From the NCBI GenBank assembly GCA_021413825.1, contig JAIOPQ010000012.1:1-64000 (forward strand): 64,000 nt of DNA. The letters run 5' to 3'. Origin of the DNA: Spirochaetia bacterium. Lineage in GTDB: Bacteria > Spirochaetota > Leptospiria > Leptospirales > Leptonemataceae. The notes below the pieces were generated by a model. That model saw nothing but the letters and a program-made list of their open reading frames with translations. It did no database searches and had not been told where the DNA came from. Below are positions 24,127 through 40,248 of this stretch, one piece after another. Within the stretch, counting starts at the first letter, position 1. The number at the start of each line of letters is the position of its first letter. A program made the translations under genes and the position numbers.

Positions 24127-25443
24127 ATGAAGTTTCTTCCTATTATACTTCTTCTATTGGCCCCGGGTTGCTTCTGGGGCACTAGAAACGGAACAAGCGA
24201 TCTTATGGATCTGGAAATTCGCCAGGACGGGCGCATTCAAATCTATTCGCTCAAGAAGGTTTCTGCAAAACCAGAAGGACCAACCCTGCTCGGAGGAAGA
24301 TCGCAAAGGCCGCTTGCAACAGGGCTTGATGCGCTTGCTGAAACCGATTTTGAATTGCTCCGCGGAAAAAACTTCGCACTACTTACGAATGCAACGGGAC
24401 TCAATCGTGAGCTTGAGCCAGGAATTGAGTTGATGATGCGCGCAGGTATTAGGCCACAGTTGCTATTTGAACCAGAGCATGGAATTTTTGGTGCAGCAGA
24501 TGCAGCGGGGCCGGATGGAATTCGAGTCGATCCACAGACAGGATTGCGCATCATGAGCCTCTACAGTTCGCAGCGCAGGCCACCAGCGTACGTGTTTGCG
24601 GGGCTGGACTACCTGGTTGTAGATATTCAAAACCTTCCAGTGCGCTGTTACACCTACGCAAGCACTTTGACCTATTTGCTTGAGACAGCGGCGCAAACTG
24701 GAACTCCGGTTCTAATTCTGGATCGGCCAAATCCATTTGGATTCATGCGTGCAAAGGGACCGTATCCGCGCGAGGAGTTGCGCAGCTTTGTAGGATACGC
24801 GCCTGTTCCGTTTCTATATTCGCTCACAGTTGGTGAATATGCACTCTTCATCTCAGAAGAAATCTTACCCACCCTCAAACTTACAGTCCTGCGTGTAGGT
24901 GGTTATTCCAGACAAGACACGGACGCTTCCTTGAGGAATTCCTGGATCAATCCGTCACCAAACATTCCATCGCCTGAAAGTGCTCTGGTTTACACCGGGA
25001 TGGTTTTCTTTGAAGGAACGAACGTTAGCCTCGGTCGAGGTACTACAAGGCCGTTTATCTATTCTGGCGCGCCCTGGATGAGGTCAGCAGAGGTAGTCGC
25101 AGAGTTCCGGAAACTACAACTGCCCGGCGTTCAAATTGCTTCTGTGGTTTTCACGCCGACCTTCTCGCTTTATACTGGAATTTCCTGTTACGGAGTTCAA
25201 CTGCATCCGGTTTCCGTTGATTTTGATCCAATCCGGACCGGATACGAACTTATGCGAATCATCCACCGGCTTCATCCAGGGCAGTTTAGCTTTACAGGCG
25301 GAAATTTCACAGATCGTCTCTGGGGCAGCGAAGGGTATCGCACGGCAGTTATGGACGACCTATCTTACAAGATATTCGAACGCACCTGGATCAGTGACAG
25401 TGAAAACTTTGAAGATTGGATGAAGAATTACCGTTTGTACTAA
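24127..25443 (+). CDS. DUF1343 lipoprotein, exo-beta-N-acetylmuramidase NamZ-like
   Basis: A 438-residue protein with a lipoprotein signal (lipobox APGC, Cys about residue 15). It carries the DUF1343 signatures FALLTNATGLNREL, LLFEPEHGIFGAADAA, VVDIQNLPVRCYTYASTL, LDRPNPFG and EGTNVSLGRGTTRPF. Characterised members (NamZ of Bacillus) release terminal N-acetylmuramate from peptidoglycan fragments, so a cell-wall recycling role on the periplasmic side is likely. Its TAA stop is the first codon of the left copy of the 59-bp direct repeat, so it marks the left chromosomal flank of the island. Confidence 0.88.
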   Translation: MKFLPIILLLLAPGCFWGTRNGTSDLMDLEIRQDGRIQIYSLKKVSAKPEGPTLLGGRSQRPLATGLDALAETDFELLRGKNFALLTNATGLNRELEPGIELMMRAGIRPQLLFEPEHGIFGAADAAGPDGIRVDPQTGLRIMSLYSSQRRPPAYVFAGLDYLVVDIQNLPVRCYTYASTLTYLLETAAQTGTPVLILDRPNPFGFMRAKGPYPREELRSFVGYAPVPFLYSLTVGEYALFISEEILPTLKLTVLRVGGYSRQDTDASLRNSWINPSPNIPSPESALVYTGMVFFEGTNVSLGRGTTRPFIYSGAPWMRSAEVVAEFRKLQLPGVQIASVVFTPTFSLYTGISCYGVQLHPVSVDFDPIRTGYELMRIIHRLHPGQFSFTGGNFTDRLWGSEGYRTAVMDDLSYKIFERTWISDSENFEDWMKNYRLY

Positions 25444-25499
25444 ACGATACCAGGGAAACTGCAGAATCCTTCCAGGTAACGTCGCTTAGCCAGACTGCT
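25441..25499. repeat. Left copy of the 59-bp direct repeat bounding the 14.8-kb island
   Basis: The sequence starting TAAACGATACCAGGGAAACT and ending TTAGCCAGACTGCT matches the copy at 40214-40272 in the same orientation, with differences only at offsets 33, 36 and 55 (56 of 59 identical). It begins at the DUF1343 stop codon and ends inside the last codons (Q-S-G-stop) of the cyclase gene. It resembles an attachment-site pair. Confidence 0.92.
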
Positions 25500-26709
25500 T
25501 TCCATCAAGGATGTACACTGGCATCGAACCTTTACCCTTCACTTCGATAGATCCGCGAGCAGTAAACGCATACTCGTGCTTCAAAATATCGAAGACTGCT
25601 TGAGTTACCTGAATCTGTCCGGCAATTCCATGCGATTCCATTCTACTGGCTGTATTAACAGCGTCACCCCAGAGATCGTACGCAAACTTCTTTTTTCCAA
25701 TTACGCCGGCAACAACCGGACCTGTCTGCATTCCGACTCGTAATCTCAGATCATGCCCAAAACCGCGGGCCTCGTGGAATATTTGCATCATGCCAAGCGC
25801 CAGATCTGCCATTGCCTGGCAATGATCTGCACGTGGGCGCGGTACTCCGGCTGCTACCATGTATGCATCACCAATCGTTTTTATTTTTTCAAGACCTGAG
25901 CGATCCGTTAGTACATCGAACCTGGAAAAGATATCATCTAGCAATCGAACAAGATCATCCGGCGAAAGTTTCTCGGACAGGCCGGTAAAATTCTCAATGT
26001 CAGAAAATAGTATGGTCGCCGATTCAAATCTATCAGCGATAGAGCGTGGATTCTCTTTTAGCAAAGTTACAATTTCATCCGGCAGAGTATTCCGCAATAG
26101 GTTTTCTGCCTTCTCCCTTTCTCGAGCCAGATTCATTTCGGAATCACGGTATGTGACAAAGCCATAGTACAGAAATCCGAACGTGATAACAGAGAACCAG
26201 AATATGACCGAGGAACGCACGGTCGGCAAGATAGCAGGCGGAATCGCAATGACTGGTGCACCTTCCCGGAATTCAAGATAGACCAGCGCCACCACACTTA
26301 GCCCGACCATGACAAACATGAGCCTGCGCTCTTCATGTGGAAAATAGTAGAACGCCCCAATTGCTACCGCAGGCATGAGGAACTGTGCGTATGTTTCTGT
26401 TCCGGCAAGAATCGTGCTGATCAGAATATTATTGAGACCGGAAAATGCAAAGATTACCCGTGCCAATGTATGTTTGCGCAAAGCTGAACAAAGGAGAACC
26501 AATCCCTGCAAGGCAAGCATGAGCGCGGAAGACCATACGAATGGGGTAGTGCCGAATTCGCGAAAATACCAGACCAGGGGCAAAAGGCTCAACTGCACCG
26601 GGATTACGACTGCAACAAGCGCATTGAGGACTATAACATTCTTACGGTGTCCGGGATCGAGTCCCTCATGAGTTCCGATTCGGAGATATTTCCGCCATAG
26701 TTGCATCAC
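25486..26709 (-). CDS. Membrane-bound class III adenylate cyclase
   Basis: A 407-residue protein. About six transmembrane helices (residues 28-190) form a membrane input domain, followed by a short coiled coil and the cyclase domain (about 225-400). Metal ligands are in ATILFSDIENFT and KTIGDAYMVAAG. Substrate-selecting Lys (KTIGD) and Asp (YDLWGDAVNTASRM) indicate ATP, and the transition-state Asn and Arg are present. It should make cAMP. It ends inside the left direct repeat and follows the PilZ-reductase fusion by 37 nt, so it is likely the third gene of that operon. Confidence 0.92.
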   Translation of the reverse strand: MMQLWRKYLRIGTHEGLDPGHRKNVIVLNALVAVVIPVQLSLLPLVWYFREFGTTPFVWSSALMLALQGLVLLCSALRKHTLARVIFAFSGLNNILISTILAGTETYAQFLMPAVAIGAFYYFPHEERRLMFVMVGLSVVALVYLEFREGAPVIAIPPAILPTVRSSVIFWFSVITFGFLYYGFVTYRDSEMNLAREREKAENLLRNTLPDEIVTLLKENPRSIADRFESATILFSDIENFTGLSEKLSPDDLVRLLDDIFSRFDVLTDRSGLEKIKTIGDAYMVAAGVPRPRADHCQAMADLALGMMQIFHEARGFGHDLRLRVGMQTGPVVAGVIGKKKFAYDLWGDAVNTASRMESHGIAGQIQVTQAVFDILKHEYAFTARGSIEVKGKGSMPVYILDGKQSG

Positions 26710-26746: not shown

Positions 26747-29461
26747 TCAAGATACCGGATCAAACAATTGGACCAAGCGTGAGGCGTTATCGTAGACATC
26801 GGGAAGAAAAGCAAAGTCCAGCAGCCCCGAGGCCAGGAGATACAAATTCAAACGCAAGGTAACAAACAATAGTACATTCAACGCAAGGATAGAATTGAAT
26901 TCAACAGAATCCAGCTCCTGGCCTGTTGCGACCTCAAGAGATTTTCTGTAATCATCGACCATGGTTCGAATCTCGGAATCCGATGCTTGCTTGAGGGTAT
27001 AGAGTAGAAACTCAGCACAGTCATACTGAGGATTCTGAATCTTGCATAATTCCCAATCGTATACGACAAGCTTGCCCTGGCGCAGACATAGGTTTCTTGG
27101 ATTAAAATCGTTGTGTGAAAGTGTCTGATGGTAATTTTTCATGCGGACGAGATTTGCTTCGAATTGATCAAAGAAGCGACGCAACCTACCAAATAGATCT
27201 GGACTAATCAGGTCAGCTCGTCGGTCGTGATTGAACTCAGTTAGCTGCCAGAGCGCCGCCCGGGCCTCAACCAACTCCGGAACCTGAAATCCTGAAACCG
27301 TCTTCAGGTTAAGATTTGCTCCGGCCCAATATCTGCTCTGCAAATGAGTCAATTGTTCGAGTGTCGATGCAATATCCTTAGTATCCCATGAGTGCCCTTC
27401 TGAAACACTGCTATAGTAATCGAGATCAGATAGATCTTCCATTAAGATTGCGTACAATTGCCGCTCTTCATCTGCAATTAGCCCAAGGATTTGCGGAGAA
27501 TACTGGCGCATGATCGGGTCGGTGCTGGCATACACTTCAATTTCACGCAAATGACTTTCTGAGAATCCAAGGACTCCCGCGGACGCTGCCAGTCGATCGG
27601 CCAGCTGCTCCTCCCCCAACAAGCGAATCAATGCTACACCAAACTCGATTATATCCGTATCTACATTCTTGATCTTGAGAACGACGGGCAACTCTCTGGC
27701 CCCATTTTCAGGATCGTTTATGCTCAGGGTATACCTGTAGATACCGGAAACCCCCGAGCGAGTTTTGTCGAATAGTTTTGTTATAATACTTTGATTGGAC
27801 GTTAGCTGGCGAGGTTCGCAGCCAGTGATCTTGCCAGCTTTGCTTCCGATCATCGATTGAAAAAACTTTGCATCGATCTGCGAACGAGAGAATGATTCCG
27901 GCCTATTGCGACCAAGCTTTTCATGTGCTTTAACAAATTCGTTCGTAGTGGTCGCGCTCACTGTGGACAAATCGAGCGCAAGGCAGGTTGCAGCAATAAT
28001 CTCGGCAAACCGAAACGCCTTACCCGATCCAAGGCAACCCAACATATCCAGGCAATCGTGCTGCGCCGGTAGCATTGTGCCGCCACCAACCGTACCAATC
28101 ACCAGGGAGGGAAGGTATGCAGTTGCGACAATCTGACCTTTATAGCCACGGATCTTAATAAATCCGGCGGATGATTCATGCACGCACGCAAGATCCTGTC
28201 CAGTGGCCGCGAAAATCCCCGCAATTACGTTTGAAAAGTTAACGTTAGGGCCGTTGGTCATCCCAATCATCAAACATCCTGATTCCGCAGACGCGATCAC
28301 TCGCAGTAATTTTTCAGAATCGACCCGAAGAATTCGACGGAGAATTTTTTCCGGTAGGGTAACCTCGGCCATTACGCCAATTCCGCGTCCCATGATAAAA
28401 TTCTGGATGTTCGACTTCTTATCGCCGGACATATTCCCTTCAATACTGTAGAATTCATATTGAATGGATCTATCATCTTGAACGGAGCTCTGTATCAATT
28501 CACAACACGCCCATGTGCAAACAGTCGTCATGTTCTGTCCTGCTGCGTCCCCCGTGGAATAATAGAACTGCACATGAACTGAACTACTAAAAATGAAAGT
28601 TTTAACCAGTTGCAATTTTGCTACTGATGACATGGATTGAACTTTTTGTGAGAGTAAATGGAAATGATTGTTAATCCATCGTTCCAGATTAAGTGCGCCA
28701 TCGATTGTCTCGCAGAAAAAAAGCGGTGAGCGCACCATTGTCTGTCGAAACACGCGTGTAATCGCACCGCCAGCCAGACTGATTGCATATGCACCCCGAG
28801 AAATTGAACTTACCAGGGCACCTTCCGAAGTTGCAATTGGAACCGAGATATGGCCTTTTGCATAAGTTCCGTTGATCAAGACAGGGCTCGTCACCCCAAC
28901 AGGTATCTCTACAGAACCTACGTAATTTTCAATGTTTCCCATCAGGGAATACGGATTGAGATTGGAGCGGGGCAGATTCTTTAATGGTGCATGTGTAGCA
29001 TTGCGAATCCAGTTGAGGCGATCCTCTATAGCCGGGCCGGAATAGTGCTCCTTACCGCGGACAAAAGGTAACTTGCGCTCCGTGAACGCACCTGCTTCGA
29101 GTACGCGCGGGCCTTCCGCTACTATAGTAACGATCTGCTGCAAGCGCTCGATTTGACTCTCCGATTCTACTTGAATCCCAATGTGGGTTCGATCCGTCGA
29201 ATAGTCACGTCTGATAGTCGCAAGGCGCATGCTTTCCATCTTGAAAGCATCTTCCGCCTTACCAATATAAATAACGTCAACCGGCATTGAAATGTCTGGT
29301 ATGACGGATCCTTCCAGGACAATTCCAAGGCCTTCCAGGGAAACGTCACTCAGGGCGCCAATGAATGAACGTTGATTTTGAAAGAACAAAATCGAAGGCT
29401 GACGACCCGCATGGAAGTAGGACCGCGGGGTCGCACGCCTCTTACTGGCTTTAGTTGCCAC
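26747..29461 (-). CDS. PilZ - HMG-CoA reductase - aminoglycoside/choline-kinase-like fusion
   Basis: A 904-residue three-part protein. Residues 1-110 form a PilZ domain with both c-di-GMP contacts: RATPR (R9-xxx-R13) and DVSLEG (D39-x-S41-xx-G44). Residues about 140-515 match class I HMG-CoA reductase: ENYVGSVEIPVGV, TSEGALVSS (E213), STGDAAGQNM, GDKKSNIQNF (K348), AATGQDLACV (D423), GTVGGGTMLP and FVKAHEKLGRNRP (H513), so all four catalytic residues are kept. Residues about 545-880 form an APH/choline-kinase fold with SHNDFNPRN (H783, D785, N790) and YDWEL (D802). No frameshift is visible. It may reduce an acyl thioester and phosphorylate a product or sugar, under c-di-GMP control; the true substrate is unknown. 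It lies 14 nt after an MMPL exporter gene. Confidence 0.88.
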   Translation of the reverse strand: MATKASKRRATPRSYFHAGRQPSILFFQNQRSFIGALSDVSLEGLGIVLEGSVIPDISMPVDVIYIGKAEDAFKMESMRLATIRRDYSTDRTHIGIQVESESQIERLQQIVTIVAEGPRVLEAGAFTERKLPFVRGKEHYSGPAIEDRLNWIRNATHAPLKNLPRSNLNPYSLMGNIENYVGSVEIPVGVTSPVLINGTYAKGHISVPIATSEGALVSSISRGAYAISLAGGAITRVFRQTMVRSPLFFCETIDGALNLERWINNHFHLLSQKVQSMSSVAKLQLVKTFIFSSSVHVQFYYSTGDAAGQNMTTVCTWACCELIQSSVQDDRSIQYEFYSIEGNMSGDKKSNIQNFIMGRGIGVMAEVTLPEKILRRILRVDSEKLLRVIASAESGCLMIGMTNGPNVNFSNVIAGIFAATGQDLACVHESSAGFIKIRGYKGQIVATAYLPSLVIGTVGGGTMLPAQHDCLDMLGCLGSGKAFRFAEIIAATCLALDLSTVSATTTNEFVKAHEKLGRNRPESFSRSQIDAKFFQSMIGSKAGKITGCEPRQLTSNQSIITKLFDKTRSGVSGIYRYTLSINDPENGARELPVVLKIKNVDTDIIEFGVALIRLLGEEQLADRLAASAGVLGFSESHLREIEVYASTDPIMRQYSPQILGLIADEERQLYAILMEDLSDLDYYSSVSEGHSWDTKDIASTLEQLTHLQSRYWAGANLNLKTVSGFQVPELVEARAALWQLTEFNHDRRADLISPDLFGRLRRFFDQFEANLVRMKNYHQTLSHNDFNPRNLCLRQGKLVVYDWELCKIQNPQYDCAEFLLYTLKQASDSEIRTMVDDYRKSLEVATGQELDSVEFNSILALNVLLFVTLRLNLYLLASGLLDFAFLPDVYDNASRLVQLFDPVS

Positions 29462-29475
29462 AGGTATATCTCAAA

Positions 29476-32256
29476 CTATGACCGGTCCCAGGGGAACTTG
29501 AACTGCGGATTCATATCAAAATTAGCCCAGCGTAGAACCGCTGGGAGTATTGTTAATGCCGCACAGGTCGACACAGTCATTACTACGGCAATCAGAAGAC
29601 CAAAGTGGAAAATCGGTGTGAAGCTGGAGAACATCAAAACAGAGAATCCGAAGATTAGCGCGATTGAAGTGTAAATAATTGCAATACCAGCAAGGGAATG
29701 CGTGGCTTTGACAGCCTCCGTTGCCGAACCAGTAGACTCGCGCTCACGCTTATATGTGAGAAGATAATGGCACGTATCATCAATGCCGATACCGAGAGCA
29801 ATGGATGTGAGAATAGCTTTTGCAATATCCAGGGGAATTCCGGTAAAACCCATAACTCCAAAAACCACCGTAACTGTAACTGTAATTGGTATGAGACTTA
29901 CGAGTGCGACTTTGATGTTCCGAAACTCATAGAGCACAATGAGACCCAGGAGAAGTGTAGTCAAAACAAGCGTTGCAATCTGCCCCTTGACTACGTAATC
30001 ACCCAGTAGAACAAAGTTAATTGGCTCTCCTACCACAAGAACCTTATATCCATTTGGATTTGGAGCTTCTTTGAAGTAACCTTCAATCTTGTGCCAGGCA
30101 TTCCGACTCATGGCGTTACTCATGGAACGGAATTCGTTTTCTCCGATGCGGACCAGAACATTCACGCGCCGATACTCACGATCCACCATACCCTCAAGAA
30201 CATCGGGTCTGCCGTCGGAGTTTTCATCTTCACCGGAAAATAACTCTACGTAGTCTGCAACTGTTGTGGGATCCTCTGGAACACGATAGAAAGCTGGCTT
30301 CTCGTCGTTGAAGGCTTGATGCATTCGCTTAACGTGTTCAGAGAAACTCATTGTGTGTAAAATATTATCATTGTCCCGGCGATCCTTGTCTTTGGCCCAG
30401 GATCTGAAGTCTTCAATGTACTTTAGAAATGCGGGATCAGTAACCCCGTATGGTTTCCCAGAATCTACTACAACATTGATGACCAGGAATCCATTGAAAA
30501 GCAAGCCTATCTTCTTAACGGCGCGACGAATGTAGTGCCCTTCATCAAAGTAGGATGTGGCCGACGTTTCTGTTGTCATCCTGGAGATACCTACGCCGCT
30601 CATCACCATGACCAGAATCCAGACGAGGACAACCGGCTTAGCGAATGCAGTGGATAGATGAGCCAGGTAATCGATGAAACGACGCAACCAGATATTGGCA
30701 CCCTTGAATCCTTCCACTCGTCTCGTACTACGCTTGCCTTCAGGGAGAAGGGCCAGGACGGCAGGAATTAAAGTACATGCCAGTACTCCCGCTGCAATCA
30801 CTCCAAACGCAGCGCCAAAGCCAAAGTCCCTAAGGCCGTCGACATAGTTAATCAGGAGAGTTGCAAAACCAAGAAAGGTTGTTGAAGCTGCAAGGAAGAC
30901 AGTGCTAGTGATTTCAGATAGAGACTCAATAATCCCGGCCTTCCCCTGGGCCGCTCCACCGCTGGAAAGGTAGTGGTTTAACACATGGATTGCATAAGAG
31001 CTGCCTACCGCTATCATGATTGGCGGCATAATTGAAGTAAAAATATTAAAGCGAACGCCAGCGAAACCCATGAACCCCAGGGTCCAGAGCGTCCCAAGAA
31101 TAATTGTCAAGAACGGCAGTGCCACACCCAGAACGGTGCGAAAGTTGAAATATAGTACAATGATGATGAACAACAAAGCGATTGGCATGTATTTCCGCAG
31201 ATCAGCTCGATTGCTTTCATTCATGATCTTAGTAAAGATAAGGGGACCCATGAGTAGAATCTTCACAGGCTTCACGTCGTGACGGTTAAAAAATTCCCAG
31301 AGGTAATCTGTAATCGGTTCATAATTCTTCTGTGGTTCAAGGAGCAGCACAATTCCAAGTGCTTGTATGTTCTTGTCCTTTCCAAGCGAGTAGACAAGCG
31401 ATTCCATGACGGGGTTTCTTTTTAGTGAGGCAATATAGGCTTTTCTAGCCCGGTCGTCTTTAGGAAGAATGGCTTTGCCATTTCCATCTTCAGGTAAAAT
31501 TCCTTTAAGACCTAACTTCCCATCATTTCCAGAAATCTCTTCTGCCGTAACTGGATCGTACATCAGGCGAATCGCTTCCACGGACTTCATGAGATAAACT
31601 TCTTCCCACGCATCCAGGAAACGCCCAAACTCTTTCTTTTCCAGTTTGCGATTCATGTCGACCGCATCGATTTTCTTCCAGCGGAGAATGGTCTGCAATT
31701 GGGACTGGGCAATAGGATCGAGACTGGCGGACAATTCTGCAAGAGAAAGAGGCTTGTATTCAGAAAGATCGTATTTACGTTTCTGGCGAATAGGCTGGCG
31801 AAAAGAATGTTCCTCCAGACGAACGTTAGGATCCCAGAGCTCATCCGGTCCGATTGGTTTGATGGGTAGAGGTGCAATCTCTTCTTTAGATTCCGTTACT
31901 TTGGCACCACTTAGGTTCAGTATCGTCGTAAGGCGAGAATCCTCGAGTTTGCTGTTAAAATTTCTCAACTCATCAAGTTCATTTGATATTGTTTGAATTT
32001 TTTCAAGAACTGGTAAACTAATGATTTCTCCCGAATCTGCTTCGATAGCTGCAAGCATGAACGATTGATTATCACCAAATTCATACTTTGCTCGCTCTCC
32101 CATTTGATACAATGGATCGCCTTTAGGCATGATGACTCCCGTGCTACTGTCGAAATGCAAGCGCGTTAATCCGAATACTTGAATTGCACTAATGACTGCG
32201 ATGATCACAATCATCCGGATTGGATTATCTACCGAAAATCGAATCAACCGTATCAC
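29476..32256 (-). CDS. MMPL/RND-family lipid exporter
   Basis: A 926-residue inner-membrane protein with two halves of six helices, each preceded by a large periplasmic loop. Sterol-sensing/MMPL patches are seen in MIAVGSSYAIHVLNHYL and ALGIGIDDTCHYLLTYKRE. The GTG at 32256 is chosen because a strong GGAGG (plus-strand CCTCC, 32264-32268) lies just upstream; a frame from 32385 would overlap the divergent promoter region. Such proteins export lipids or hopanoid-like compounds together with LolA-like and outer-membrane partners, both of which are found in the divergent operon here. First gene of the leftward operon. Confidence 0.92.
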   Translation of the reverse strand: MIRLIRFSVDNPIRMIVIIAVISAIQVFGLTRLHFDSSTGVIMPKGDPLYQMGERAKYEFGDNQSFMLAAIEADSGEIISLPVLEKIQTISNELDELRNFNSKLEDSRLTTILNLSGAKVTESKEEIAPLPIKPIGPDELWDPNVRLEEHSFRQPIRQKRKYDLSEYKPLSLAELSASLDPIAQSQLQTILRWKKIDAVDMNRKLEKKEFGRFLDAWEEVYLMKSVEAIRLMYDPVTAEEISGNDGKLGLKGILPEDGNGKAILPKDDRARKAYIASLKRNPVMESLVYSLGKDKNIQALGIVLLLEPQKNYEPITDYLWEFFNRHDVKPVKILLMGPLIFTKIMNESNRADLRKYMPIALLFIIIVLYFNFRTVLGVALPFLTIILGTLWTLGFMGFAGVRFNIFTSIMPPIMIAVGSSYAIHVLNHYLSSGGAAQGKAGIIESLSEITSTVFLAASTTFLGFATLLINYVDGLRDFGFGAAFGVIAAGVLACTLIPAVLALLPEGKRSTRRVEGFKGANIWLRRFIDYLAHLSTAFAKPVVLVWILVMVMSGVGISRMTTETSATSYFDEGHYIRRAVKKIGLLFNGFLVINVVVDSGKPYGVTDPAFLKYIEDFRSWAKDKDRRDNDNILHTMSFSEHVKRMHQAFNDEKPAFYRVPEDPTTVADYVELFSGEDENSDGRPDVLEGMVDREYRRVNVLVRIGENEFRSMSNAMSRNAWHKIEGYFKEAPNPNGYKVLVVGEPINFVLLGDYVVKGQIATLVLTTLLLGLIVLYEFRNIKVALVSLIPITVTVTVVFGVMGFTGIPLDIAKAILTSIALGIGIDDTCHYLLTYKRERESTGSATEAVKATHSLAGIAIIYTSIALIFGFSVLMFSSFTPIFHFGLLIAVVMTVSTCAALTILPAVLRWANFDMNPQFKFPWDRS

Positions 32257-32379
32257 GTTATATCCTCCAGGGAACCCAATCGCTTGCTTCATCTTTCGAT
32301 CGTCAAGTATCAAAGGCATGAGCGGACAAAAAAAACTTCTTTTAGTTGACAAAGACGAAAAAGCAATCGATTCGCAGAA

Positions 32380-33942
32380 ATGCATGGCGAGATCGTCGAG
32401 AAGCTCTCGGGAAATATACTTGATAAACTGATATCAATAGCCTCTACATCCTCAGACCACCCCGCATTGATTGATCCGTACGCCGCCAATGGCTCGAAGT
32501 ATCGTTCGTTTGATGAGCTTTATACTGACGTAGCCATCGTCGCATATCGGATGCGCGAGAAAGGCATCCGTGTGGGCGATAGAGTGCTGATCTTCATTCC
32601 ATATACATATGAATTGTTCGTTGTATTGCTTGCCGTTACATATTCAGGCGCTGTTGCTGTGTTTGCAGATATCGCCGCTCACGGGGATATGATCAACCAG
32701 GTCTGCTTATCTGCGAAGCCGCGCGCATTCATTGGCATCCTTGCGTCGTTCGCGTTGATGAAAAATTCTCAGTTGCGTCGTGTTCCCATAAAGCTCTGGC
32801 ATAAATCACTGCTTTCGGGTAGAAAACCGACTTCGCCCAAGATGGACACGGTGCCTGTGGATTCTGAAAGTTCTGCTCTCTTCACTTTCACGAGCGGAAC
32901 TACAGGAAACCCAAAAGCTGCAGATCGATCGCATGCATTTCTGTGGCGGCAACATAAGGTGCTCGCAGCTCATCAGCATTTTGACAGAGACGAAGTCGAC
33001 TTAACTCTCTGGCCAGTATTCGCTTTGAGCAATCTGGTTCAGGGAGTAACGAGTGTAATCCCACATTTCAATTCTCGCAAACCCGGCTCAGCAAAGCCTG
33101 AGGTAATTCATCGACAGATAGTGGATTCAAAAGTAACTGCAATGACAGGTCCGCCGATTTTCTTTGAGCACCTGGCAGAATACTGGCAAACAAGGACCCC
33201 GCCGGAAACACTCAAGCGCGCCTCCGTAGGTGGAGCACCTGTATTTCCTGCACTTGCGCAGAAGTTGGTTCAAGTCCTCGGTGATCGAAGCCTTGAGGCT
33301 ATTTACGGGTCCACGGAGGCTGAACCCATGACCAGCCTTACTCTCGCTAAGCTCGCTGAGGATGCCACGTTTGGCGGAGTCCCTGTAGGTGAGCCCCTAC
33401 CCGAAACGACTCTGCGGATTATGGCCGAAATCGAGACCGCGAGCAACTCATTGGGTCGCGTGGCGGAGGAAGGGGATTCAGGTGAAATCGTCGTCGCGGG
33501 ACCACATGTTCTGGATAGATATTTTCAATCGGATGAAGACTACAAGCTGACGAAGGTCCATGCGGAAGGGCGGCTCTGGCATCGAACGGGCGACATCGGC
33601 TATCTTAAAGGGGGCAAGGTCACATTACTCGGTCGCCTTGCGTTTGGGATCAAAGCAGGCGAGAAGACGGTCTATTCATTCCCTTTCGAGAAACGAATGA
33701 AGCAGGAGCCAGACGTTATTCGCAGTGCACTGGTCGGATCTAAAGGCAATGCTGCGGGCTTTGTTCAGCTGCGGAAAAAAACCAGGAACCTGCGCGTGGC
33801 AGAGATTGAAGCCATTGCCCGGGACACGCTCGAGAAACTGGACCTTCCCGCAGCGCGAATTATAGCAAATACGGTGGAAATTCCAACCGATAAGCGGCAT
33901 AACTCGCGCATCGAATATGCAACCCTTTTGAGGCAGGTTTGA
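32380..33942 (+). CDS. AMP-forming acyl ligase, OleC/fatty-acyl-AMP-ligase-like
   Basis: A 520-residue ANL-superfamily enzyme. Motifs: P-loop FTFTSGTTGNPKAADRSH, YGSTEAEP and HRTGDIGYLKGGKVTLLGR. The C-terminal part (TDKRHNSRIEY) aligns with the PxDxRHNAKI tail of OleC-like beta-lactone synthetases, but the usual catalytic lysine position is Arg. This may mean adenylation is slower or that another half-reaction is carried out. No carrier protein or OleA/B/D is adjacent. First gene of the rightward operon; the start is an ATG without a strong ribosome-binding site. Confidence 0.85.
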   Translation: MHGEIVEKLSGNILDKLISIASTSSDHPALIDPYAANGSKYRSFDELYTDVAIVAYRMREKGIRVGDRVLIFIPYTYELFVVLLAVTYSGAVAVFADIAAHGDMINQVCLSAKPRAFIGILASFALMKNSQLRRVPIKLWHKSLLSGRKPTSPKMDTVPVDSESSALFTFTSGTTGNPKAADRSHAFLWRQHKVLAAHQHFDRDEVDLTLWPVFALSNLVQGVTSVIPHFNSRKPGSAKPEVIHRQIVDSKVTAMTGPPIFFEHLAEYWQTRTPPETLKRASVGGAPVFPALAQKLVQVLGDRSLEAIYGSTEAEPMTSLTLAKLAEDATFGGVPVGEPLPETTLRIMAEIETASNSLGRVAEEGDSGEIVVAGPHVLDRYFQSDEDYKLTKVHAEGRLWHRTGDIGYLKGGKVTLLGRLAFGIKAGEKTVYSFPFEKRMKQEPDVIRSALVGSKGNAAGFVQLRKKTRNLRVAEIEAIARDTLEKLDLPAARIIANTVEIPTDKRHNSRIEYATLLRQV

Positions 33943-36678: not shown

Positions 36679-37413
36679 ATGAAAGTAGCTCTCAGAACAA
36701 TTGCCCTGGCTCTGACTCTGACCGCCACCGCGATCACGGCGGAAGATGGAGCCTCCATCATGAAAAAGAACGATGCCCTTCCTGATGCGCGAACCACAAA
36801 AATCGACGCTACCCTCATTATTCTTAAAGGGGGGCAAAAACAGGAGAAAACGTTCCAGGTTTTCGCAAGGCGATACCCGACAGAGATGCGGACACGTTTT
36901 AAATTTCTAAAACCAACACGTATTGAAATGCTCAGTTGGAATCTTTACGGGAAAGACGATCTGCAATGGGTCCGCTTATCAAGCGGCAGTGTCCGTATGA
37001 TTGCATCATCGGACCGTGGAAGCGCCTTTGCCAACTCCCATTTCTACTACGAGGACATTAACTCAAGGGATGTAGATCAATTTCACTATAAGCTGCTAGG
37101 CGACGTAAACTGGGGCGGACACGATTGCTACAAAGTTGAATCTGTAAAAGCAATCGGGGCAAAGGTCTATGACAAGTCAATTGTCTATGTCAGGAAATCG
37201 GATTTCTTTGTGGTTGGAGAAGAGTTCTTTGAGGATGGAAGACACACCAAAACTCTGAAGTTTGAGGAAATCGGAATTCTGAAAGGATACATAACGCCAA
37301 GAAGAATCGTAATGGAACGCGCTGATGGGTCAGGAAAGAGCATCTATCAGATAGATAAGATCGAATACGACACAGCTTTGCCTGATACCATGTTTAACAA
37401 AGAGAATCTTTGA
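36679..37413 (+). CDS. LolA-like outer-membrane lipoprotein-sorting protein
   Basis: A 244-residue exported protein with a signal peptide (1-21, ITA-ED). The mature part has the LolA_like half-barrel pattern: DATLIILKGGQKQEKTFQVF, MRTRFKFLKPTRIEML, YKLLGDVNWGGHDCYKVE and a C-terminal GYITPRRIVMERADGSGKS. Proteins of this family occur next to MMPL exporters and DUF1302-like barrels and are thought to carry lipids across the periplasm. All three are encoded in this cluster. Confidence 0.85.
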   Translation: MKVALRTIALALTLTATAITAEDGASIMKKNDALPDARTTKIDATLIILKGGQKQEKTFQVFARRYPTEMRTRFKFLKPTRIEMLSWNLYGKDDLQWVRLSSGSVRMIASSDRGSAFANSHFYYEDINSRDVDQFHYKLLGDVNWGGHDCYKVESVKAIGAKVYDKSIVYVRKSDFFVVGEEFFEDGRHTKTLKFEEIGILKGYITPRRIVMERADGSGKSIYQIDKIEYDTALPDTMFNKENL

Positions 37414-37414
37414 A

Positions 37415-38164
37415 ATGCTCAGAGTAATCCTCGTCTCATCAGAGGTTACGTACGTTCCAGACAATTACGCTGCAGCGTTTAATACAATACTGCGCCAGTG
37501 TCCGGGTCGAGTTGTAGCTCTGGTTGCTTTGAAAGTAGTCAACCTGGCCTTGCTGGCTACAATCGCAAAGCTGTGGTTCGCCGGTTGCCACGGAGTAGCA
37601 GGCGCCCTCGCAAACAACATAGTCTCAAATCCCGCGAAAAAGCGTAGGCTCCAGTTTGCGGAGCATGGCGCGGCCTTCATCGAAGCTACAACCATGAACG
37701 ATGCCGGAATGATCGAATGGGTGCGCGCAAACAGAATTGATCTGATAGTAAACATGAGGACCAGATGCATCTACAGAGAAGAGATACTGAGAACACCGCG
37801 CCTGGGCTGCGTCAATATTCATCACGGGCTACTCCCAAAGTACAGAGGACTGCTTTGCGATGCGTACGCCCTGTTTGAGGGAAGAGAGGCAGGATTCACC
37901 GTTCACTCGATGAATGCCAAAATCGACGATGGTGGCATTCTTAAACAAGCGGTCGTAGAAAAGATAGACCCCACCGTTTACACATCGCATGTGCAGAAAA
38001 GCTCCGAGATTGAGGGAGGAACAATCGCTGATCTAATTTTGCAAATAGAAGAGCTAGGCCAATTGCCGCCGACTATTCCAAATAAATCAGACGGAATCAT
38101 TCATACGCGAACACCTTCGCTCGAAACGATTCGTAAGATGCGTAAGACCGGATTGAAATTATGA
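37415..38164 (+). CDS. Formyltransferase-fold enzyme
   Basis: A 249-residue protein with the N10-formyl-THF-dependent formyltransferase catalytic pattern: Asn and His in CVNIHHGLLPKYRG (N134, H136) and Asp in NAKIDDGGIL (D171), as in Fmt and GART-type enzymes. The Fmt C-terminal tRNA-binding domain is missing. It is followed by a 4-nt overlap with the DUF3419 gene. In pathways such as sugar or lipid formylation, related enzymes modify an amino group, so an amino-lipid or amino-sugar target is plausible here. Confidence 0.8.
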   Translation: MLRVILVSSEVTYVPDNYAAAFNTILRQCPGRVVALVALKVVNLALLATIAKLWFAGCHGVAGALANNIVSNPAKKRRLQFAEHGAAFIEATTMNDAGMIEWVRANRIDLIVNMRTRCIYREEILRTPRLGCVNIHHGLLPKYRGLLCDAYALFEGREAGFTVHSMNAKIDDGGILKQAVVEKIDPTVYTSHVQKSSEIEGGTIADLILQIEELGQLPPTIPNKSDGIIHTRTPSLETIRKMRKTGLKL

Positions 38165-39255
38165 CAGAACATCAATATTTCTCCAAACTCAACTACAGCA
38201 TGGCAAATGAAGATACTGCGCTGGAACTTGCTCTGGTTAAGGAACACGCATGTGAGAAACTGGTGATTGTAGCAGGAAGCGGGAGCCGTTCATTACCTCT
38301 GGCAGCAGGAGACAGCGTAAAAGAACTTTTTCTCGTCGACCTTGCCCGCGAACAGGTCGATCTCTCAAAGTTCCGATTGGAAGCATTTAAGTCCCTGACG
38401 CGCGAGAAGTTTTGTCTGACCATGGGATACCCTCCGTTTGACCCGTTGAACGACATTGAAGAAAGGGAAACAATTATCTTGAACATTGCAGAGAAACTCC
38501 AATTGAGAAGTTGGCTGGAGTTTCTGGGACATAGCGAAGCCTGGAAGGGAATGGCCTACTGGGGAAAGTGGGAGAAATCCTTTGGCACGCTAAACAAAAT
38601 AGCCCGTTTCTTCCTTGGGAACTTGTGCGACCAGATCATGGAATTTACGGATATTGAGGCACAGCGTGCATTCTATCGAACTAAGTTCAGGAAGCGCTGG
38701 AAGTTTGTAGTGTTCATCCTGGGAAATTCCTCTGTATTCAATGCCCTACTCTATCGTGGACACTTCGTTAAAAAAAATATAAAGGCGTCCTACATTAACC
38801 ACTACATGCGCTCATTTGATCATCTCTTTGAGAGCGGGCTTGCGCGAGATAATTTTTTTCTGCAGTTGTGTGTGCTTGGTCGTCTTTACTTCCCGAGTGG
38901 CTTGCCGCTTGAAGCACAAAGCAACGCATACGATGCGATACAATCAGGTCTTACCAAAGCCCGATGCGAAATCCATCAGCGTAGTGTTTTCGATTTCCTA
39001 TCGGAAGCAAGCGATGTTGACTTTGTTTCTCTGAGCGATGTTCCTTCTTATTTGGGCCCTCCTGAAGAGGATCAATTCTTGCAAAAGATTTTGCCCGGCC
39101 TGCGGTCGAAGGCAATAGTCGCAGTCAGATTCTACCTTCGTATTCCGCGAGGGCTGGATGCAACCGGATATGCGGAAATAACCGAAAGATATACTGATTT
39201 GATTTCATCAGAAAAGATGCAAGTCTATGACGTTAGGATCTATCAAAAGTCATAA
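38161..39255 (+). CDS. BtaA-like (DUF3419) aminocarboxypropyl transferase
   Basis: A 364-residue protein of the DUF3419 family, whose known member BtaA moves the 3-amino-3-carboxypropyl group of SAM to diacylglycerol in betaine-lipid synthesis. Seen are FSKLNYSMANEDTALELALV, the SAM-binding loop VIVAGSGSRSLPLAA, LFLVDLAREQVDL and LSDVPSYLGPPEE. It has no BtaB-type methyltransferase neighbour, so the product may stay as a primary amine that the coupled formyltransferase could use. This pairing is inference. Confidence 0.8.
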   Translation: MTEHQYFSKLNYSMANEDTALELALVKEHACEKLVIVAGSGSRSLPLAAGDSVKELFLVDLAREQVDLSKFRLEAFKSLTREKFCLTMGYPPFDPLNDIEERETIILNIAEKLQLRSWLEFLGHSEAWKGMAYWGKWEKSFGTLNKIARFFLGNLCDQIMEFTDIEAQRAFYRTKFRKRWKFVVFILGNSSVFNALLYRGHFVKKNIKASYINHYMRSFDHLFESGLARDNFFLQLCVLGRLYFPSGLPLEAQSNAYDAIQSGLTKARCEIHQRSVFDFLSEASDVDFVSLSDVPSYLGPPEEDQFLQKILPGLRSKAIVAVRFYLRIPRGLDATGYAEITERYTDLISSEKMQVYDVRIYQKS

Positions 39256-39297
39256 GTTTCGAATTAACGACCCTTGAGAATAAGGTCAGGAGTTGAT

Positions 39298-40248
39298 ATG
39301 GAAAGCTGGGTAAAAGATTGTATCAGGACCGGTCGACAGTTTCATTTCACAAAAGTCAATCGTTGGCTGCACAATCTGTTGAACACTTCTTGCTTATTGC
39401 TTAGCTTGAGTTCCATTGTTTTTTTATTGCTCGTAGCTCTGTATAATCCTGCCAATCCATTGATACTACTGCTTAGTCCTATTCTAGGCGTGCTCCTATT
39501 CTCAATCTATATTCTAGTCTTGCATGAAGCCGCTCACAGTATGTTCTGGATTGCGGGAAATAGCCGGTTGCGGGATACATTGAACATTCGCGCAGGCCAG
39601 GTCATGTCATTACTCCTCTTCCAGGATTTTCAAAGCGATTGGCGAGTGGGGCATATACGCCATCACCAATTCCCTCTGGAAGAAGGAAAAGATCCACAGG
39701 TTGCTGCAGATGGCATTTGTGGAACTGCCCTCCTGAAGCAACTACTGCTCCTTGCACTGATTCCTGGAGTTGCCCTTGCCCTGAATCGCAAGAAACGCGC
39801 CAATGGGCGAAATAAGCTCCCGATTCTCCTTTCAGTTGCATTCTGGATTATGATCGCGGCATTGCTCGGTTATTTTGGTGGAATACTTCCCGTCCTTACC
39901 TTATTCTATGGATTCAATTTTCTGATGGCGATCAACTTCAATCGAATCGCGCAGGAGCACGGTTCTGGTTTAAAATACGAGAGGGAAGCCATCCTCAGGT
40001 CAAGGACCTATCGATTCCCGCTGATCAATCTGATTTTCCCTTACTTTGTCAACTACCACTTTGAACATCATCTGATCATGACGATTCCGTGGTACCTGCT
40101 TCCAAAATATTCGCGTGCAATAGCCGGCACAGTGCCCGAGCATATCCGGGAGCACATTGCCACAACCGGATTCCGTCAAGTCGGCAAGCAACTGATGGCC
40201 AGGCGGCACAACTTAAACGATACCAGGGAAACTGCAGAATCCTTCTAG
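39298..40248 (+). CDS. Membrane fatty-acid desaturase
   Basis: A 316-residue membrane-bound di-iron desaturase or hydroxylase. The three histidine boxes are clear: HEAAH, HIRHH and HFEHH, with helices between. The ATG at 39298 is chosen because AGGAG lies 6 nt upstream (39287-39291); the TTG at 39274 has no such site. The last ten codons lie in the right copy of the 59-bp repeat (NDTRETAESF). Last gene of the rightward operon. Confidence 0.88.
   Translation: MESWVKDCIRTGRQFHFTKVNRWLHNLLNTSCLLLSLSSIVFLLLVALYNPANPLILLLSPILGVLLFSIYILVLHEAAHSMFWIAGNSRLRDTLNIRAGQVMSLLLFQDFQSDWRVGHIRHHQFPLEEGKDPQVAADGICGTALLKQLLLLALIPGVALALNRKKRANGRNKLPILLSVAFWIMIAALLGYFGGILPVLTLFYGFNFLMAINFNRIAQEHGSGLKYEREAILRSRTYRFPLINLIFPYFVNYHFEHHLIMTIPWYLLPKYSRAIAGTVPEHIREHIATTGFRQVGKQLMARRHNLNDTRETAESF

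Follow-up and report, generated by a model that had tools for sequence, protein, structure and literature searches.

It was found that a gene of a Spirochaetia bacterium encodes a PilZ-fold domain, an HMG-CoA reductase-like domain, and an APH-like kinase domain in one frame, and that the reductase-kinase fusion recurs in roughly ten phyla. Judging from the aligned residues, the fusion reductase has preserved its catalytic machinery while the recognition of the HMG carboxylate appears to have been removed. It is therefore highly probable that HMG-CoA is not its main substrate. I consider it moderately likely that the protein is a bifunctional reductase-kinase, which would convert a non-HMG acyl thioester into a phosphorylated alcohol for lipid biosynthesis. 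The family is apparently undescribed and widespread. The gene lies in the window, that is, the whole stretch of 64,000 nucleotides that was analyzed, and its parts are as follows.

26747..29461, minus strand: the PilZ-like / HMGR-like / APH-like kinase fusion gene, a single 904-aa frame
29117..29440, minus strand: N-terminal PilZ-fold domain (residues 8-115), with R9xxxR13 and D39xSxxG44
27908..29032, minus strand: class I-like HMG-CoA reductase domain (residues 144-518)
26762..27841, minus strand: APH/EcKL-type kinase domain (about residues 541-900)
27092..27115, minus strand: kinase catalytic loop HNDFNPRN (residues 783-790)

The frame starts with a GTG codon and has no internal stop codons. 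As the original prediction had proposed, PilZ, HMG-CoA reductase, and kinase are joined in it, the last two being recognized by Pfam and the PilZ part by its fold. In the Pfam scan, HMG-CoA_red (PF00368) matched residues 144-518 over the full length of the model with an E-value of 3.7e-102, and APH (PF01636) matched residues 655-832 with an E-value of 1.2e-9 (38.8 bits against the curated cut-off of 23.2). The PilZ match at residues 8-110 stayed below the Pfam gathering score of 22.5 bits, both in the whole protein (E 0.02, 15.7 bits) and when the domain was scanned alone (E 6.5e-4, 20.4 bits), and the N-terminus was tested by fold instead. When residues 1-133 were modelled with AlphaFold2 on the basis of 17 homologous N-termini, the mean pLDDT was 85.8, and the Foldseek matches of this model in the PDB were, with few exceptions, PilZ domains (the best with an E-value of 1.6e-5 and a probability of 1.00). 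The full-chain model has a mean pLDDT of 86.0 with confident domains and a pTM of 0.55, for which reason the domain arrangement is left uninterpreted. HMGR matches dominate the Foldseek result of the full chain, which gives no information on the kinase.

The N-terminus has the beta-barrel fold of the PilZ c-di-GMP receptors YcgR, Alg44, VCA0042, and BcsA. Like these receptors, the window protein literally has both the RxxxR motif (R9-R13) and the DxSxxG motif (D39-G44), with 26 residues from the second Arg to the Asp. Unlike them, the fusion N-terminus scores under the Pfam cut-off, and the motif pair is intact in only 2/17 homologous N-termini, those of the window protein and of L003, both from Spirochaetota; the remaining 15 have lost at least DxSxxG. 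The window genome has 22 GGDEF matches, and the range across the genomes of the window and L003 is 19-22. Thus, the direct second-messenger control that had been suggested is plausible for the window protein in view of its fold, its motifs, and the GGDEF matches, but c-di-GMP is not a general mode of control, since the motifs are eroded in 15/17 N-termini and most fusions have no N-terminal domain. The PilZ-fold domain probably serves in regulation or docking. A class III cyclase gene beside the fusion gene (see below) points to a possible second nucleotide signal at this locus.

Is this fusion common? In a search of 393 Spirochaetota genomes, G219 proved to encode all three parts in a single frame, with 44% identity across residues 8-895, and G120 to have a copy at a contig edge. 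No full-length match was found in 30 relatives of the window genome. When GTDB contigs were scanned with a four-member alignment, 80 loci were obtained, and about 53 of them have HMGR and kinase in a single frame. Their hosts include Nitrospirota, Desulfobacterales, Myxococcota, Paenibacillus, Gammaproteobacteria (among them Kosakonia and Marinobacter), Alphaproteobacteria, Bacteroidota, Bdellovibrionota, Actinobacteria, and others. Overall, about 55 HMGR-kinase fusions were found in roughly ten phyla. An extra N-terminal domain is present in about 17-20 fusions, that of the window among them. A plasmid search found one related fusion, which is on a Streptomyces plasmid and has no N-terminal domain, and several HMGR-only records. 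In an Acidimicrobiia MAG (L080:402-3000), the reductase and the kinase are in two overlapping frames, due to either a split gene or a frameshift. The domain order had been taken as not described. No description of the architecture or its gene context was indeed found in the open literature, with few subscription journals covered, but the implied uniqueness was wrong, as the architecture recurs in several phyla. In the lipocone paper, one operon type combines an HMGR with a GHMP kinase, an arrangement that differs from the fusion, and the myxobacterial elb ether-lipid operon does not contain the fusion.

The gene neighborhoods point to lipid chemistry. Neighbor families, named with Pfam and NCBIfam, were compared between 54 fusion loci and 33 standalone HMGR-like loci on six-frame profiles, since greedy ORF calling missed some high-GC loci. 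The counts and co-occurrence p-values are only indicative, because the loci share ancestry, are unequal in length, and were themselves the source of the profiles, but the fusion loci differ from the standalone loci in PEP-synthase-like genes (29/54 versus 0/33), CarS-like genes of the CDP-archaeol synthase family (25/54 versus 0/33), UbiA (19/54 versus 0/33), CDP-alcohol transferases (16/54 versus 1/33), dTMP-kinase-like (TMPK-like) genes (14/54 versus 0/33), GH3 acyl-adenylating genes (10/54 versus 0/33), MMPL (8/54 versus 0/33), and LolA-like genes (7/54 versus 0/33). Two Moraxellaceae and Marinobacter share a ten-gene block, of which Kosakonia has a part; it comprises LolA, an uncharacterized gene, MMPL, UbiA, the fusion, a PEP-synthase-like gene, the unassigned neighbor family c7, an acyl ligase, a CDP-alcohol transferase, and CarS. 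In the Spirochaete G120, a second contig starts with the apparent C-terminal end of the truncated kinase. The genes that follow on it encode a PEP-synthase-like enzyme, c7, an acyl ligase, and a 398-aa protein (L134:3511-4704) that unites the CDP-alcohol transferase with a CarS-like domain. A 926-aa protein of a Beijerinckiaceae MAG (L045:11725-14505) is matched by three profiles, those of the AMP-ligase cluster, CarS-like proteins, and CDP-alcohol transferases, and by these matches it appears to unite the same steps in another fusion. The actinobacterial fusions mostly lie between a GH3 gene and a dTMP-kinase-like gene. In many genomes, the fusion is clustered with enzyme families known from CDP-alcohol lipid pathways of the archaeal type and of bacteria (UbiA/DGGGPS-like, CarS, and PssA). 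The known pathways contain no reductase-kinase. No glycerol-1-phosphate enzyme was seen among the fusion neighbors examined.

The neighborhood in the window is as follows.

29476..32385, minus strand: MMPL/RND transporter gene, immediately upstream of the fusion gene (14-nt gap), with Patched/sterol-sensing Pfam matches
25486..26709, minus strand: class III adenylate/guanylate cyclase with an N-terminal membrane part, downstream of the fusion gene (37-nt gap)
32380..33942, plus strand: divergent AMP-binding acyl ligase (PRK09274/OleC-like), of the same family as ligases beside other fusions
36679..37413, plus strand: LolA-like lipoprotein-sorting protein, with the profile common to LolA-like genes beside other fusions
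38161..39255, plus strand: DUF3419 (BtaA-type) protein of the divergent operon
39274..40248, plus strand: fatty acid desaturase of the divergent operon

The divergent operon consists of the acyl ligase, two uncharacterized genes, an MFS transporter, and the LolA-like, formyltransferase-like, DUF3419, and desaturase genes. The formyltransferase-like and DUF3419 genes overlap (37415-39255), and this pair may hint at a lipid head group. A NamZ exo-beta-N-acetylmuramidase with NamZ_N and NamZ_C domains is encoded at 24127-25443 on the strand opposite to the fusion gene. Genes of the same acyl ligase, MMPL, and LolA families also adjoin other fusions. In 20 relatives of the window genome, the acyl ligase had no match at an E-value of 1e-20, and the MMPL transporter was absent, or distant in two (best 25% identity). 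The fusion, the ligase, and the transporter are thus essentially confined to the window genome among these relatives, suggesting that they have travelled or been retained together. CarS-like and PEP-synthase-like genes were not found at the window locus or in the window genome, and the downstream steps should therefore differ from those of the relatives.

The kinase domain has the HxDxxxxN motif that had been predicted, together with the metal-binding Asp and the N-lobe Lys and Glu; H783-N-D785...N790 and D802-W-E are nearly invariant among relatives. It shares the fold, the HxDxxxxN and DWE motifs, and the N-lobe Lys and Glu with APH/EcKL phosphotransferases, including the kinase domains of ACAD10/11, but differs from them in being C-terminal to a reductase and in having no close solved relative. 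The best solved matches of its profile were ACAD11 (E 7e-4, a marginal match that spans the catalytic loop only) and aminoglycoside phosphotransferases (E 0.0045). Since the ACAD10/11 kinase domains phosphorylate 4-hydroxyacyl-CoA (PMC11342911), the likeness to ACAD11 may be a hint of hydroxylated acyl-type substrates.

The sequence itself shows the fusion, the folds, the intact catalytic residues, the loss of the site for the HMG carboxylate, and the gene context; from these features I infer a substrate class, an order of two reactions, a lipid product, and binding of c-di-GMP. The HMGR-like domain would convert some acyl-CoA or acyl-ACP, distinct from HMG-CoA, into a primary alcohol by the chemistry of HMGR, with two hydride transfers from NAD(P)H via a bound hemithioacetal. 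The fused APH-fold kinase would then phosphorylate the alcohol product, or its hydroxyl, with ATP, and the phospho-alcohol would feed lipid synthesis. The lipid chemistry is suggested by the neighboring acyl ligases, CDP-archaeol-synthase-like enzymes, CDP-alcohol transferases, UbiA, PEP-synthase-like enzymes, MMPL, and LolA. In many relatives, the next steps may be activation with CTP by the CarS-like enzyme and transfer by the CDP-alcohol transferase, often with UbiA and the PEP-synthase-like enzyme, while in Actinobacteria the phospho-alcohol may be handled by the dTMP-kinase-like enzyme. In the window, the fusion would be tied to the acyl ligase and an MMPL/LolA export route, and its PilZ-fold N-terminus would regulate or dock, and may bind c-di-GMP in this Spirochaete.

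The kinase might instead phosphorylate an unrelated partner, such as a lipid head group, with the reductase still acting on another acyl thioester and the fusion serving co-localization or channelling. This is unlikely. APH-fold kinases are diverse in their substrates, the sequence fixes no substrate for this one, and L080 carries the parts on separate frames, but the fusion, with its two conserved catalytic sites, is stable across some ten phyla, and many loci continue with CTP- or ATP-dependent enzymes fit for a phosphate monoester.

The residues of the reductase active site are listed below.

28823..28825, minus strand: catalytic Glu213 (human E559)
28439..28441, minus strand: Glu341, replacing human Ser684
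28418..28420, minus strand: catalytic Lys348 (human K691)
28286..28288, minus strand: Ala392, replacing human Lys735, which forms a salt bridge to the HMG carboxylate (PMC9500038)
28193..28195, minus strand: catalytic Asp423 (human D767)
27923..27925, minus strand: catalytic His513 (human H866)

The four catalytic residues had been named in the original prediction, and all of them are present and invariant in an alignment of 46 relatives; among 55 fusions, the Lys, Asp, and His are kept in all and the Glu in 54, with one gap. The domain resembles class I HMGRs (human HMGCR, the target of statins, 1DQ8; Methanothermococcus, 6HR7) in its fold, its catalytic Glu/Lys/Asp/His, and about 30% identity. 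In contrast to these enzymes, the window protein has Lys735 and Ser684 replaced, Asn for His752, Gln for Met657, Thr for Leu853, and one residue deleted at human position 737; it also has no membrane domain, an attached kinase, and no mevalonate context. These positions were compared with seven mevalonate-type controls, namely the human, a plant, an archaeal, and three Spirochaetota enzymes and one from a complete Streptomyces mevalonate operon. The K735 position has Lys in 0/55 fusions and 7/7 controls (the HMMER alignment and the MAFFT alignment run with the controls agree), the S684 position has Glu or Asp in 55/55 fusions and Ser in 7/7 controls, and the H752 position has Asn or Asp in 55/55 fusions and His in 7/7 controls. 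The NCBIfam equivalog TIGR00533 (HMG-CoA reductase, NADPH) gave 274.7 bits, below its cut-off of 441.8. Some turnover of HMG-CoA may still occur, since the HMG-contacting residues Arg590, Asp690, Lys692, and Asn755 of class I enzymes are retained.

The acid at the S684 position allows another reading, in which the reductase stops at the aldehyde or takes HMG-CoA-like dicarboxylyl or amino-acyl thioesters. Glu341 could hold a cationic group, and the product could be an amino-alcohol phosphate, for example a new phospholipid head group. An acid beside the lost carboxylate site in 55/55 fusions agrees with this, as do the PssA-like CDP-alcohol transferases and the GH3 or AMP ligases nearby. On the other hand, CarS-like enzymes are membrane enzymes acting on lipid substrates, and desaturase, PlsC-like acyltransferase, and LolA/MMPL neighbors suggest a lipid chain. 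I regard this reading as a little less likely again than an unrelated kinase partner.

In the phylogenetic tree, the fusions form one clade of 63 rows, including a few unfused members, with an SH-aLRT of 99. Standalone HMGR-like proteins adjoin this clade, and the mevalonate controls lie outside. The standalone proteins (from Alteromonas, other Spirochaetota, and others) have Lys at the K735 position in 0/36 cases. Those with GDAAGQNM, from Alteromonas and other Spirochaetota, form the sister clade and share the lack of K735, but they have no kinase, keep Ser684 in many cases and His752 in most, and lie in other gene contexts. The annotation of standalone proteins called HMGR or resembling it without this Lys (L023, L137, and L086-L110, from Alteromonas, Vibrio, and others) is doubtful. 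In a Sinorhizobium plasmid "HMG-CoA reductase" (L138:4878-6122), which is encoded among acyl-CoA carboxylase genes, the K735 position is occupied by Cys and the K692 position by Arg; it is another likely non-HMG-CoA variant. HMGR-like proteins of 513-535 aa (in L088, L097, L107, and L109, with two copies in L097) have a different conserved N-terminal domain of ~130 aa.

Do the host genomes have a mevalonate pathway? In the window genome (G000, 93.7% complete), HMG-CoA synthase (PF01154) had no match, the MEP marker DXR is present, and the fusion is the only HMGR. DXR is also present, with HMG-CoA synthase unmatched, in the fusion genomes of G219, G120, Paenibacillus, Moraxellaceae, and Kosakonia that were tested. 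The K735-bearing Spirochaete G317 has an HMG-CoA synthase about 1 kb from its HMGR on the same contig and gave no DXR match. Three fusion-bearing Bacteroidota genomes have a second, separate HMGR; two of these (L124 and L126) align weakly to a class I archaeal sequence and the third had no match at the threshold, which suggests that they are class II. Taken together, the changes at K735, S684, and H752, the missing HMG-CoA synthase, the presence of DXR, and the second HMGR in Bacteroidota indicate that the fusion reductase is probably not an HMG-CoA enzyme. The earlier suggestion that a reductase had been reused on another acyl thioester, with the kinase phosphorylating its product, gains support from the same evidence and from the lipid and CDP-alcohol gene neighborhoods.

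The evidence speaks against a true HMG-CoA reductase joined to a non-orthologous mevalonate kinase, which would make mevalonate 5-phosphate for isoprenoids under a c-di-GMP switch. The intact catalytic tetrad, the strong PF00368 match, the PilZ fold, and the UbiA prenyltransferases beside some relatives would fit such an enzyme. However, with K735 and S684 replaced in all fusions, DXR but no HMG-CoA synthase match in the window genome, and a second HMGR in Bacteroidota, it is very unlikely and was disfavored. That an error of assembly or sequencing has joined separate genes can practically be dismissed, for although the source genome is a 134-contig draft, GC is uniform across the gene and its neighbors, and full-length homologs of the same order exist in independent genomes, including that of the named strain Paenibacillus assamensis DSM 18201.

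A bolder form of the bifunctional reductase-kinase reading is that the fusions make a new class of bacterial membrane or secreted lipids across phyla, in which a phospho-alcohol from an HMGR-derived reductase and kinase is CDP-activated, with c-di-GMP as a switch in the window Spirochaete. For example, a long-chain 1,3-diol phosphate made from a 3-hydroxyacyl thioester might replace glycerol phosphate. This is speculative and, in its full form, rather unlikely. Since the residues for HMG-CoA recognition have apparently been lost, the HMG-CoA reductase calls on this family are probably wrong, and the chemistry is probably undescribed. The changes at K735 and S684 offer a clear test of how the specificity of HMGR evolves. 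If the bifunctional reading is true, the fusion would provide a one-polypeptide route from activated acids to phosphorylated alcohols, and it would reveal lipid pathways common to Spirochaetota, Desulfobacterota, Paenibacillus, Gammaproteobacteria, Bacteroidota, and Actinobacteria.
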